A stretch of 64,000 nt of DNA. Source: Flavobacteriaceae bacterium NBU2977. Its GTDB lineage: Bacteria > Bacteroidota > Bacteroidia > Flavobacteriales > Flavobacteriaceae. Under the pieces are notes generated by a model. The model made no database searches. It saw only the letters and a program-made list of their open reading frames with translations, and was not told the origin of the DNA. Position numbers and translations under genes: made by a program. The stretch spans positions 1,736,001 to 1,800,000 of the forward strand of contig JAIOUW010000001.1 of the NCBI GenBank assembly GCA_019931105.1. The letters run 5' to 3'. Within the stretch, counting starts at the first letter, position 1; each line of letters opens with the position of its first letter. This document shows positions 5,247 to 34,791 of this stretch, one piece after another.

Positions 5247-5684
5247 TTAGTTCGAGATGATAATGATGTTGCCACTGGCAGAAGCGCGGTATTCAAGCAT
5301 GTCGTAATAGCGTTTGCCATCATCGGGGCGATTCAAGAACTGTCCCGTAAAAAGGCTATACTCGAAATCATCACAGGAGCACACCACATTTTGGCCGTCA
5401 ATGGTCATTGTAGAACAATCGCTGGGGGCATGATTGGGGCAGCTTGCCTCGAAGACCCTGAACTGGTCAAAGCCCGTATTCATTACGAACGCGCCTCGGG
5501 TACCAACGGTCTGATTATCGATATAAACGGGATTGCCGGTATTGGTCAACGGACTGTATAAGGGTAGGTTCGTATTGATGTCGAACCGAAAACCGATTTC
5601 CTGTAAATACGGATTTCGGTTGGTGCCATCCTTACTACATGACAATACCAACAATACTAAAATTAAACACCAAATACGGTTCAT
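5247..5684 (-). CDS. Lipoprotein with degenerate Rieske-like domain
   Basis: The 145-residue product begins MNRIWCLILVLLVLSCSKDG, a type II signal peptide with lipobox LVLSC, so it should be a membrane-anchored lipoprotein. The second half resembles a Rieske [2Fe-2S] fold: CPNHAPSDC followed by VVCSCDDFEYSLFTG, where true Rieske proteins have C-x-H and C-x2-H. Here the first pair is C-x2-H and the His of the second pair is replaced by Asp, so a normal cluster is unlikely. A longer frame reaches 5717, but the ATG at 5684 places the lipobox correctly. It converges with the receptor gene (24-bp gap) and diverges from greA. The function is unknown. Confidence 0.75.
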   Translation of the reverse strand: MNRIWCLILVLLVLSCSKDGTNRNPYLQEIGFRFDINTNLPLYSPLTNTGNPVYIDNQTVGTRGAFVMNTGFDQFRVFEASCPNHAPSDCSTMTIDGQNVVCSCDDFEYSLFTGQFLNRPDDGKRYYDMLEYRASASGNIIIISN

Positions 5685-31237: not shown

Positions 31238-31317
31238 TGCATTAGGTAATGAAAGGATCACGAAGGATGCTCGCACACGGGATTCCGGATGTGGTCATTT
31301 GTTTTTATGGAAGTAAG

Positions 31318-34300
31318 ATGAACTACAATTTCAACGAAATTGAGGCCAAATGGCAAAAATATTGGGCCGAACACCAAACCTTTAAGGCCGAGAACAACTC
31401 GGGGAAGGAAAAATTCTACGTGCTCGATATGTTTCCGTACCCCTCTGGGGCAGGACTTCACGTAGGCCACCCATTGGGTTATATCGCAAGCGATATTTAT
31501 GCCCGCTATAAAAGGCACAAGGGGTTTAATGTGTTGCACCCGCAAGGATACGACTCCTTCGGATTGCCCGCTGAACAGTATGCGATTCAAACGGGCCAAC
31601 ACCCGGCGATTACTACGGAAGAAAATATCAAAACCTATAGAAGGCAGTTAGACCAACTCGGATTTTCCTTTGATTGGAGCCGTGAAGTACGTACCTCGGA
31701 TCCAAAATATTACAAATGGACACAATGGATCTTTATTCAACTGTTCAATTCGTGGTATAACAAAGACACGGACAAGGCAGAAGACATAGAAACCTTGATG
31801 TCAAGATTTGCTGCGGAAGGAAATACCAAGGTCAATGCCGCCTGTGATGAAGATGTTTCCCAGTTTTCGGCAGATGACTGGAATTCTTTTTCAAGCAAGG
31901 AGCAACAAGAAATCTTGCTCAAATACCGATTGACCTATTTGGCCGATACCGAAGTGAATTGGGTTCCGGCCTTGGGTACGGTTCTTGCCAACGACGAAAT
32001 CGTAAACGGGGTTTCCGAACGTGGCGGACACCCCGTTGTACGCAAGAAAATGACGCAGTGGAGCATGCGCATCACGGCCTATGCCCAACGCTTGCTCGAC
32101 GGATTGAACACCATAGATTGGCCACAGCCTTTAAAGGATTCGCAGACGAATTGGATCGGTAGGAGCGAAGGGGCAAGTGTTAATTTTAAGGTCCTCCCCC
32201 TAGCCCCCTCCGAGGGAGGGGGAATTACTCCGCGGTATATTACTGCAGATTCGGATTTATATCCTGTTTTATTGGAACGGGCTAAAGAGATGCGTAAAAA
32301 TCCAACTGCCGCTGAAGATAAACTATGGCAGGCCCTAAGAAGAAAAAATCTTGATGTCCGATTTAGGCGACAGCATCCCATTTACAGATTCATTGTCGAT
32401 TTTGTTTGCCTCGAGAAAGGCCTGATAATAGAAGTTGATGGGAAAATACACGAGTATCAATTAGACAACGATGCCCAGCGCACCCTTGAGTTGGAGCAAA
32501 AAAAAGGATATACGGTTATACGATTCGACAATGACGAGGTACTAAATGATTTGGAAAGAGTGGTTTCAGAAATTGAAGATGTGTTGAACTCCCTCCCCTT
32601 GGGGGAGGGTTGGGGAGGGGATTTTGAAATCGAAGTTTTCACCACCCGCCCAGATACCATTTTCGGGGCCTCTTTCATGACGCTTGCACCTGAACATGAA
32701 CTGGTGCCAAAAATCACCACCCCTGAACAAAAAGCCGAGGTCGAGGCCTATATCGAAGCCACCGCAAAACGTTCTGAGCGGGATCGTATGGCCGATGTTA
32801 AAACGGTTTCCGGTACGTTTACGGGTGCGTATGCCGAACATCCGTTTACCAAAGAACCGGTTCCTATTTGGATCGGCGACTATGTCTTGGCAGGCTACGG
32901 TACGGGAGCGGTGATGTCCGTTCCATGCGGTGATCAGCGCGATTATGATTTTGCCAAACATTTCGGTATTCCGATTCCGAATATTTTCGAGGGCATCGAT
33001 ATTTCTGAGGAAGCTTTTGCCGATAAGGAAAAGACCATTATCGCCAATTCCGATTTTCTAAACGGACTTTCCTATAAAGAAGCTGTTAAGAAAGTGATCG
33101 CCGAATTGGAAAAAATCGGTCAGGGCAAGGGCAAGGTGAATTACCGATTGCGTGATGCCGTTTTTAGTAGACAGCGGTATTGGGGCGAACCCTTTCCGGT
33201 GTATTATGATGAAGAAGGTATGCCGCAAATGTTGGATGAAAAATTTCTGCCGCTAGAACTGCCCGAAGTCGATAAATACTTACCGACGGAAACCGGCGAC
33301 CCGCCGTTGGGCAATGCCAAAAAGTGGCATTGGCTGCAATATGGCGGTGATGGAAAAGTGGTGTCAAAGGAGGAATTTGAAAATTCATCTCCTGAAGGAA
33401 GGTTGGGCGGACCTTTGGAGTTGAACACCATGCCCGGATGGGCCGGCAGTTCGCAATACTTCAACCGCTATATGGATCCGCACAACGATAAGGAAATCTT
33501 CTCGCGGGAAGCCATCGACTATTGGCAAGATGTTGACCTGTATATCGGCGGTAGCGAACATGCCACAGGGCATTTATTGTACAGCCGTTTTTGGCAAAAG
33601 TTTATGTTCGATAAAGGCCTCGTGCCCAAAGCCGAGTTTGCCAAAAAACTGATCAATCAAGGAATGATTACGGGGACGAGTGCCTTTGTTTATAGAATGC
33701 AACAAGACACAATGCTTAAGGATGGCATAGATGTTCTAAAAGCTTTGGATATAAAAAGGAAAGAATATTTTTTGTCGAAAAGTCTAAATGACGATTATAT
33801 CGGCGGAGTATATAATCCGATTTTGGAAAAGGTAAAATCTCAAATTATAGAAGATTATAAAAAAGTGGGTGTTGAAGCCCAATGGTTCGAAGAAGTGCAC
33901 CCCACATCCAACCCAATTCACGCCGATGTATCATTCGTTAATGCATCAGATGAATTAGATATCGAAGCTTTCAAAAATTGGAGACCTGAATATAAAGACG
34001 CTATATTTATTTTAGAAAACGGCGAATTGTACGATTCTAACTCCCTCCCCTTGGGGGAGGGCCGGGGAGGGGTCTTCAGAGTCTCCCGCGAAATCGAAAA
34101 AATGTCCAAATCCAAATACAATGTCGTCAATCCCGATGATATTTGTGAGGAGTACGGGGCCGACAGCCTTCGCATGTACGAAATGTTCCTCGGTCCATTG
34201 GAGCAATCAAAACCTTGGAACACGGCCGGTATCACGGGGGTACATTCTTTTTTGAAAAAATTATGGAGATTATACCACTCCGGTCCGAACGGAGAATTCC

Positions 34301-34791
34301 ACGTAACGGACTCTCCCCCTTCGGGGGAGCCGGAGGGGGCCAAAACATTGCACAAAACCATCAAAAAAGTTGAGGACGACATCGAAAACTTCAGTTTTAA
34401 CACCTCGGTCTCCACTTTTATGATCTGTGTCAACGAATTGACCGCACAGAAGTGTCATAGCCGTGAAATTTTGGAACCATTGGCGATTTTGGTGTCGCCC
34501 TATGCTCCGCATATCGCAGAAGAACTTTGGGGGAAATTGGGCCATGGGGAGTCAATAGCCTTCGCGCCTTTTCCGAAATTTGAGGAGAAATATTTGGTGG
34601 AAAGTACAAAGGAGTACCCGATTTCCTTTAATGGCAAGATGCGTTTCACGATGGAACTTCCGTTAGACTTGAGCAAAGAAGAAATCGAGGCCGCGGTCAT
34701 GGCGAATGAAAAAACGCAACAACAATTACAGGGCCGAACGCCCAAGAAAGTGATCGTCGTGCCCGGAAAGATCGTTAACATTGTGGGATAA
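31318..34791 (+). CDS. leuS: Leucyl-tRNA synthetase interrupted by a DUF559 domain and GC-rich repeats
   Basis: The 1157-residue frame encodes a full class I LeuRS: HIGH motif as HVGH in [10 protein letters not shown] (near residue 48), editing-domain motif [10 protein letters not shown] (near 441), [16 protein letters not shown] (near 928) and the C-terminal [19 protein letters not shown]. It is about 150-200 residues longer than usual flavobacterial LeuRS. The excess includes residues 293-435, a complete DUF559 nuclease-like domain between inverted palindromes placed in the loop before the TTRPD strand; short repeat-encoded peptides [11 protein letters not shown] (near 908, just before KMSKS) and [10 protein letters not shown] (near 998); and an AT-rich extra segment near 800-850. 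All insertions keep the frame, so the enzyme is probably made and active, unless a second leuS exists elsewhere. The start at 31318 is preferred to 31249 because conserved LeuRS begins [16 protein letters not shown]. Confidence 0.95.
32194..32227 (+). repeat. GC-rich palindromic repeat, copy 1 (left end of the DUF559 element)
   Basis: Contains the 8-bp stem CCCCCTCC/GGAGGGGG with loop GAG, preceded by CCTCCCCCTAG. It is translated as [10 protein letters not shown] within LeuRS. It is in inverted orientation to the other three copies. Confidence 0.85.
32587..32621 (-). repeat. GC-rich palindromic repeat, copy 2 (right end of the DUF559 element)
   Basis: Contains CCCTCCCC/GGGGAGGG with loop TTG, then TTGGGGAGGGG. 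It is translated as [11 protein letters not shown]. It differs from copy 3 only at two central bases (TT versus CC). Confidence 0.85.
34039..34072 (-). repeat. GC-rich palindromic repeat, copy 3 (solo, before KMSKS)
   Basis: Almost identical to copy 2 and in the same orientation, with no DUF559 sequence attached. It is translated as [11 protein letters not shown] directly ahead of the strand leading to KMSKS. The frame is kept. Confidence 0.85.
34310..34340 (-). repeat. GC-rich palindromic repeat, copy 4 (solo, diverged)
   Basis: Stem CTCCCCC/GGGGGAG with loop TTC is followed by CCGGAGGGGG. It has the same architecture as copies 2 and 3 but is more diverged. It is translated as [10 protein letters not shown] in a loop of the C-terminal helical domain. 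Confidence 0.75.

Follow-up and report, generated by a model that had tools for sequence, protein, structure and literature searches.

A DUF559 nuclease domain between inverted palindromes, in frame within a flavobacterial leucyl-tRNA synthetase: a candidate homing-type element

The leuS gene and its insert

The window, that is the whole stretch of 64,000 nucleotides analysed here, comes from Flavobacteriaceae bacterium NBU2977 (genome G000 in our set), whose genome comprises 3.82 Mb in 18 contigs. It carries a gene for leucyl-tRNA synthetase (LeuRS) which is interrupted in frame by a nuclease-like domain. The conserved start of LeuRS is probably the ATG at 31318, judged by eye. The features of the locus are as follows:

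31249..34791, + strand: leuS (leucyl-tRNA synthetase); a single open frame, 1180 aa with the insert included
32193..32224, - strand: left palindromic end, with a C-rich tail outside and the hairpin inside; 39.7 bits; encodes an 11-residue linker
32225..32274, + strand: N-terminal extension of the TA-x-x-x-x-Y-x-x-L type, which recurs in copies in other hosts (by eye)
32275..32586, + strand: DUF559 (PF04480), a Vsr/EDxHD-like endonuclease domain with its active-site residues intact
32589..32620, + strand: right palindromic end, with the hairpin inside and a G-rich tail outside; 43.0 bits; encodes a 12-residue linker
34041..34072, + strand: solitary palindrome, nearly the same as the right end; 42.7 bits; in frame, in another loop of leuS
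34310..34339, + strand: fourth palindrome, more diverged; 22.9 bits; in frame in leuS

An earlier note, made from the sequence alone, had claimed that a complete DUF559 domain with the expected acidic residues lies within leuS, and this was borne out by the score of the insert against PF04480 (120.8 bits, curated cut-off 20.6, profile positions 5-108 of 109). Searched within LeuRS the domain scored 115.7 bits, and Pfam recognised the LeuRS domains together with DUF559 at residues 322-425 of the searched stretch. The two ends were rightly described as inverted hairpin palindromes, since a single covariance model matches both of them, one on each strand. Everything is in frame with leuS, as the note had it; the length of 428 bp that it gave does not hold, not being divisible by three. 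Nor is the editing loop split, as had been claimed: comparison with empty leuS genes showed that the insert largely takes the place of the native loop, which has about 10 residues.

The palindromes at 34041-34072 and 34310-34339 are additional to the two that the note had listed. The former is missing from the leuS of the same-genus genome G001, where this loop is short. The region 33700-33990 of the window (leuS residues about 800-890) differs strongly between G000 and G001, most of the gene being about 90% alike.

Pfam found no intein domain in LeuRS and no Rfam family reached its gathering score in leuS, so that an intron or intein was ruled out. An assembly artefact was also discarded, because the identical anatomy is present in complete and named genomes. 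The AlphaFold model of LeuRS (1159 residues, mean pLDDT 82.0, 27 sequences) presents the insert as a domain of its own, which lies between strands 284-294 and 439-444. Values of pLDDT below 50 were obtained at residues 298-309, 430-436 and 914-918, which are largely encoded by three of the palindromes, and at 378-380 inside the domain; the stretch encoded by the fourth palindrome (34310) did not fall below 50. The enlarged LeuRS would presumably be soluble and functional.

Distribution of the domain and of its palindromes

A probe joining the two leuS flanks was run on 249 Flavobacteriaceae genomes and 243 of them gave a leuS match. The gene was unsplit in 203 and split at this loop in 40, and DUF559 occupied the loop in 21 genomes, a patchy distribution. 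The empty site for which the note had proposed a search is thus common, and the domain is not in all relatives. When 30 of the 203 unsplit matches were read, 29 had loops 10-20 residues long, and the pattern did not resolve the remaining one. The other 19 split genes carry in-frame inserts of 21-49 residues without DUF559, and in genome G249 the loop holds a GC-rich palindrome of the same type as the ends of the cassette, alone. Because the contents of the loop vary between genomes, it can be said that it tolerates inserts and that the DUF559 cassette is one kind of occupant. A single old domain inherited vertically in leuS was rejected as the whole story, given the 21 carriers among 243 genomes and the presence of the domain in many other enzymes. 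The identity of the insert exceeded that of the host in only 6 of 190 leuS pairs.

Several particular contents of this loop were also observed. At least 10 of 19 genomes (L151-L169) have other palindromic repeats there, CGTC-like by eye (e.g. GTCATTGCGAG...GAAGCAATCT), sometimes two or three in tandem and with no DUF559. Among the 21 DUF559 copies, that of G137 has a broken frame, in a genome which is 64% complete. The LeuRS of G004 (L022/L106) and of G138 (L104) contain decayed DUF559 domains, still in frame, which have lost several active-site residues, and a hairpin scan found no palindromes at these two copies. In Maribacter halichondriae (L186) the leuS frame is broken at about position 5660 of the locus, near a C run, possibly by a sequencing error.

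The loci fetched from elsewhere consisted of 60 regions and 80 named loci, the latter being the best 80 of the search matches and leaning toward copies similar to the query. Among them palindrome-ended DUF559 domains were found inside MetH (at three sites), RecG, RecJ, IleRS, ValRS, MetRS and a second site of LeuRS. Fusions of DUF559 to HisD, HemD, IspF, guanylate kinase and a threonine-dehydratase-type enzyme were assigned from host-family profiles, and Pfam added as hosts methylmalonyl-CoA mutase (two loci), CoA-transferase III, the aconitase family, a DegT aminotransferase, an epimerase and chorismate synthase. By profile search, at least nine kinds of enzyme are internal hosts (LeuRS, MetH, RecG, RecJ, IleRS, ValRS, MetRS, methylmalonyl-CoA mutase and CoA-transferase III), and at least six further kinds carry the domain as a fusion; locus L102 has no named host in this list. 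One LeuRS case (L198) lies outside the Bacteroidota, in a Paceibacterota MAG (binning as deposited). Guanylate kinase is preceded by an in-frame DUF559 in two Bacteroidales loci (L207 and L226). In eight genomes (L065, L074, L076, L080, L084, L085, L086 and L091) a palindrome-bearing DUF559 is fused in frame just upstream of the N-terminus of HemD, identified by Pfam for L065. These HemD-fused copies form a separate clade (100/99) in the 75-row tree described below.

The covariance model of the palindrome was trained on 40 hand-picked ends, with DUF559 flanks partly from the genomes that were later searched; the training set includes both ends of the window insert and the palindrome at 34310, and not the one at 34041. 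At E<=0.01 this model had four matches in the 64-kb window, all in leuS. The whole source genome (3.8 Mb) had eight matches at this threshold, three of them in leuS, and 21 at E<=1, four of them in leuS, so the repeat does occur elsewhere in its own genome, where the note had suggested looking for it. These are short palindromes dispersed in several copies per genome, as REP are, with 16 copies in G206 and 28 in G025 besides the 21 in the source genome. They also lie as in-frame inserts in conserved proteins, as Rickettsia palindromic elements (RPE) do. The repeats which the note had proposed to seek at other DUF559 loci are present both at solo genes and in frame in other proteins. Neither of the two outcomes that the note named as refuting it, a domain shared by all relatives and an absence of the repeats at other DUF559 loci, was thus obtained.

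The orientation of the ends depends on the kind of copy. For internal inserts the tails point outward at 112 and inward at 8 of 176 ends, 56 being unscorable, and for terminal fusions outward at 29 and inward at 8 of 56, while solo DUF559 genes have no consistent inverted ends (17 outward and 19 inward of 76); hairpins scoring below 3.5 were taken as none in these counts, and the rows include at least five loci counted twice. A REPIN is an inverted pair of REPs. Because of the tail directions, the in-frame copies can be considered a defined inverted unit, REPIN-like with an enzyme inside, and the solo genes just palindrome-rich. Moreover, the left and right ends of the same fused copy are more alike than shuffled ends (0.433 versus 0.286 for 63 pairs; none of 300 shuffles was as high). 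A G-rich outward tail was present in 144 of the 188 scored ends and GTAG in 3. Among the 40 training ends 25 of 120 forward frames and 12 of 120 reverse frames are closed by a stop, compared to 35% for random 32-mers of the window; the ends are therefore easier to translate through.

Hairpin density in the fetched loci was about 3-5 per kb within 150 bp of DUF559 and 0.1-0.2 beyond 600 bp, a difference of about 20- to 30-fold and beyond what chance would give, in a sample whose 33 solo rows include eight loci counted twice. Weak, partial or decayed DUF559 copies, taken as a control (seven rows, one locus twice), had no hairpins in the 2.1 kb alongside, and no hairpin was found within 150 bp at five loci of Vsr-like or helicase-borne relatives. 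Across the 249 genomes, matches to the palindrome model occurred in 53 of 91 with a strong DUF559 (E<1e-9 in the genome search) versus 9 of 158 others (Fisher p 3e-20), with 244 copies in the former and 17 in the latter, about a 20-fold enrichment; this test leans toward its training set, which, as said above, came from the surroundings of DUF559 and shares some genomes with the search. Matches were absent from the remaining 38 of the 91 strong-DUF559 genomes, and the nine other genomes match without a strong DUF559. In G206 the palindrome family of the leuS insert is also the one at 10 of the 12 other match places that were read outside leuS, whereas in G025 the amplified family differs from that at its leuS insert. 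The idea that the palindrome of the leuS insert is always the one amplified in the genome was therefore abandoned.

Relatedness of the copies and the nuclease domain

In a tree of 75 rows from the family sample, the copies in LeuRS, MetH, RecG, IleRS and HisD shared one clade (99/94), and both DUF559 copies of the G240 metH came out as sisters (100/90). With the named loci added, a tree of 150 rows placed solo genes among the in-frame copies and the single in-frame clade was lost; copies below 80 bits or 95 residues were left out of this tree and of the active-site count given below. The site label required 39 changes on the larger tree (minimum 15, shuffled mean 91.9), L074 and L091 (HemD fusions) and L188 (second LeuRS site) being scored as 'other', and its well-supported branches forced at least three changes each for LeuRS and MetH-A. 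Such a tree points to descent mostly faithful to site, with repeated jumps.

The metH copies give an example of relatedness across sites. The two copies of L247 are 88% identical, and site B of L235 resembles site A of L247 (79%) more closely than site A of L235 itself (51%), which points to exchange between the two sites. Filled and empty sites also coexist within a genus, as the RecG and IleRS sites are filled in G272 and are without DUF559 in G021; MetH-A was excluded from this comparison, the empty-site pattern having matched 2 of 11 loci. When filled and empty sites were aligned no target duplication, such as a MITE leaves on classical transposition, was visible by eye; the pairs are diverged and the native loop residues seem to have been replaced. 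At MetH site B one genus has three inserts (L323, L324 and L326), a DUF559 cassette in G000 and other palindromes in G001 and G002, of which by eye one is GC-rich and one CGTC-like.

Compared with its counterpart in G001, the window insert showed no trace of having been transferred or co-converted recently, its divergence being about that of the flanks (16 of 113 identical-residue codons differ in the insert and 6-8 of 40 in the neighbouring blocks). A recent exchange between these two genomes had been considered from the whole-gene dS values (0.595 for the host and 0.289 for the insert) and was rejected on a block-by-block view of the gene; the host value is raised because of variable regions in leuS. 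The types of palindromic end are scattered over the host leuS tree (P-ILSFPKG shows six changes, and 153 of 500 shuffles were as low), which fits weakly with repeated replacement. Relatives on plasmid (36) and phage (3) records are all below 60% identity and uninformative on origin.

Profile search of the insert retrieved 3hrl, the DUF559 protein NGO0050 of Neisseria (2.5e-32), and the homing endonuclease I-Bth0305I, 3r3p (2.4e-7), a mobile-intron protein by its PDB title. A structural model of the insert (mean pLDDT 79.5) gave the same two structures with Foldseek (1.2e-6 and 5.8e-5) and Vsr weakly (0.23). NGO0050 belongs to the same family as the insert, which is listed with unknown function. 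Each of the five active-site positions (E, D, E, D and H) is retained in 108 or more of the 109 fused copies. The domain is predicted to have a Vsr/EDxHD-type fold with the acidic active-site residues of that family. In addition, dN/dS was 0.036-0.114 in the 7 of 10 pairs that were scorable (of the others two were saturated and one was a repeated locus). This purifying selection could be due to a selfish enzyme in renewed use, to a benefit for the host or to constraint on folding.

A possible homing-type mode of spread

We consider it probable, with moderate confidence, that the insert is a homing-type element with REP-like palindromes as its ends and a predicted nuclease translated within the host enzyme. 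The note had recognised the anatomy of a small mobile element, and this is well supported as regards ends plus enzyme, tolerance in frame and spread between sites. In favour of a homing-type element are the patchy distribution, the recurrence of the cassette in many enzymes, the relatedness of copies across sites, the outward tails and mutual similarity of the ends, the co-occurrence with palindromes, the differing occupancy within a genus, the retained active site under purifying selection, the match to I-Bth0305I, and the modelled insert domain with its low-confidence linkers. The unit would be a small selfish element, [tail-hairpin]-DUF559-[hairpin-tail], whose palindromes would form a REP-like family with few copies in the genome. 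As an enzyme of the Vsr/EDxHD homing type, DUF559 would cut or nick palindrome-bearing or empty sites, and repair of the break would then copy the entire cassette, or just a palindrome, into the cut site. The palindrome would therefore serve both as end of the element and as landing site in homing. That DUF559 is what moves the palindromes is suggested by their co-occurrence and by its homology to homing endonucleases. As the element would be translated as linker-domain-linker, copies in surface loops of essential enzymes may be tolerated and hard to lose by imprecise deletion. Several findings weigh against a homing-type element. Copy numbers are low in the source genome, and the strong clustering of inserts by site would equally result from long vertical descent. 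The 38 strong-DUF559 genomes without a palindrome match, the nine with matches but no strong DUF559, the bias of that test toward its training set and the different amplified palindrome in G025 also count on this side. So do the lack of any trace of recent transfer between G000 and G001, the solo genes among the in-frame copies of the larger tree, the mere 6 of 190 leuS pairs in which the insert is the more similar part, and the fourth leuS palindrome, whose stretch is not below pLDDT 50.

Other explanations were weighed against the same data. The palindromes might be moved by other machinery, with the DUF559 frames as cargo spread by recombination between repeats. Unrelated palindromes without DUF559 (CGTC-like by eye) do occupy the same LeuRS and MetH loops, and solo genes lack a consistent end orientation, both of which speak for such a passenger; nevertheless, the almost complete retention of the active site in fused copies, dN/dS of about 0.1 or less and the concentration of palindrome copies in DUF559 genomes make a passive role unlikely. 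It is improbable, too, that the nuclease recognises conserved host sequence and homes only to the leuS, metH or recG allele, the palindromes being incidental linkers. Homing of this classical kind would account for the reuse of identical sites in distant taxa, including the Paceibacterota MAG (binning as deposited), and for the homology to I-Bth0305I, but close copies sit in unrelated target sequences, sister copies occupy two sites of one gene and palindrome-type ends are found in all the intact cases read.

Finally, DUF559 could have been gained long ago in LeuRS and kept for defence, nucleic-acid handling or regulation. We regard such a host-serving domain as very unlikely, given the 203 of 243 relatives without a split, the same domain in unrelated enzymes and the persistence in the LeuRS of G004 and G138 of decayed copies minus active-site residues, even though strong purifying selection, the grouping together of most LeuRS inserts in the trees and a weak PADLOC match of DUF559 (1.5e-5, to a homing-endonuclease profile) speak for it.

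The homing-type element can be compared with several known systems. RPE are palindromic repeats of 105-146 bp, described as non-autonomous, which lie in frame in conserved protein genes of Rickettsia, including gmk (PMC2229807). Both systems have in-frame palindromes that are tolerated in conserved proteins, with guanylate kinase as a host in both; unlike RPE, the present element has a nuclease domain between two palindromes and is translated as a whole unit within the host protein. In the REP/RAYT system (TnpA-REP, REPtrons) short tail-plus-hairpin repeats stand beside an enzyme gene and solitary copies elsewhere (PMC3733652). Here, too, tail-plus-hairpin repeats flank an enzyme gene and solitary copies are found elsewhere. 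However, the enzyme is of Vsr/EDxHD type whereas RAYT is an HUH tyrosine transposase, for which Pfam gave no match in the leuS frame (only LeuRS domains and DUF559, with its Vsr-like fold), and the palindromes are in frame in proteins and without the GTAG tag (the 3 of 188 ends given above). The comparison to RAYT drawn in the note therefore stands for the way of working and fails for membership.

With I-Bth0305I, an EDxHD homing endonuclease, the domain shares its sequence profile and fold and, in our proposal, spread of homing type, but no intron or intein was found in leuS. Fungal mitochondrial rps3, itself intron-borne, has a homing endonuclease fused in frame (PMC7902536). The nuclease is likewise in frame with a host protein here, but the present inserts lie within a range of unrelated bacterial enzymes and have palindromes at their borders. 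In its way of working the element is like RAYT/REP and homing elements, and it is neither a RAYT system nor an intein or intron.

No description of such an element was found in the open-licence literature, and the titles and abstract openings on DUF559 in this literature gave no link to palindromes or in-frame mobility. We see an even chance that, in Bacteroidota and also outside them, this is a kind of mobile element not described before. It would persist as a translated domain in essential enzymes, with its palindromic DNA ends serving also as flexible peptide linkers and its nuclease copying the unit into new loops. If this is true, the large 'unknown function' family DUF559 would gain a function, and DUF559 would be the missing mobility enzyme for a large set of transposase-less orphan palindromic repeats. 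Selfish elements would then also be able to spread through coding DNA without splicing, by being translated as a loop. Fused 'DUF559 proteins' in annotations should be regarded with caution, as they are ordinary enzymes bearing an element. Moreover, the loops that are used mark where essential enzymes naturally tolerate insertions, which can be of use in protein engineering.

A DUF559-like endonuclease domain was also observed in a different setting. At L105:3166-5316 (G150, region of C1:236312) a 717-aa protein has this domain inside a probable intein, called from a Pfam Intein_splicing match of 2.2e-6 that is under its cut-off. A nuclease of the Vsr/DUF559 type may thus act as an intein homing nuclease too.
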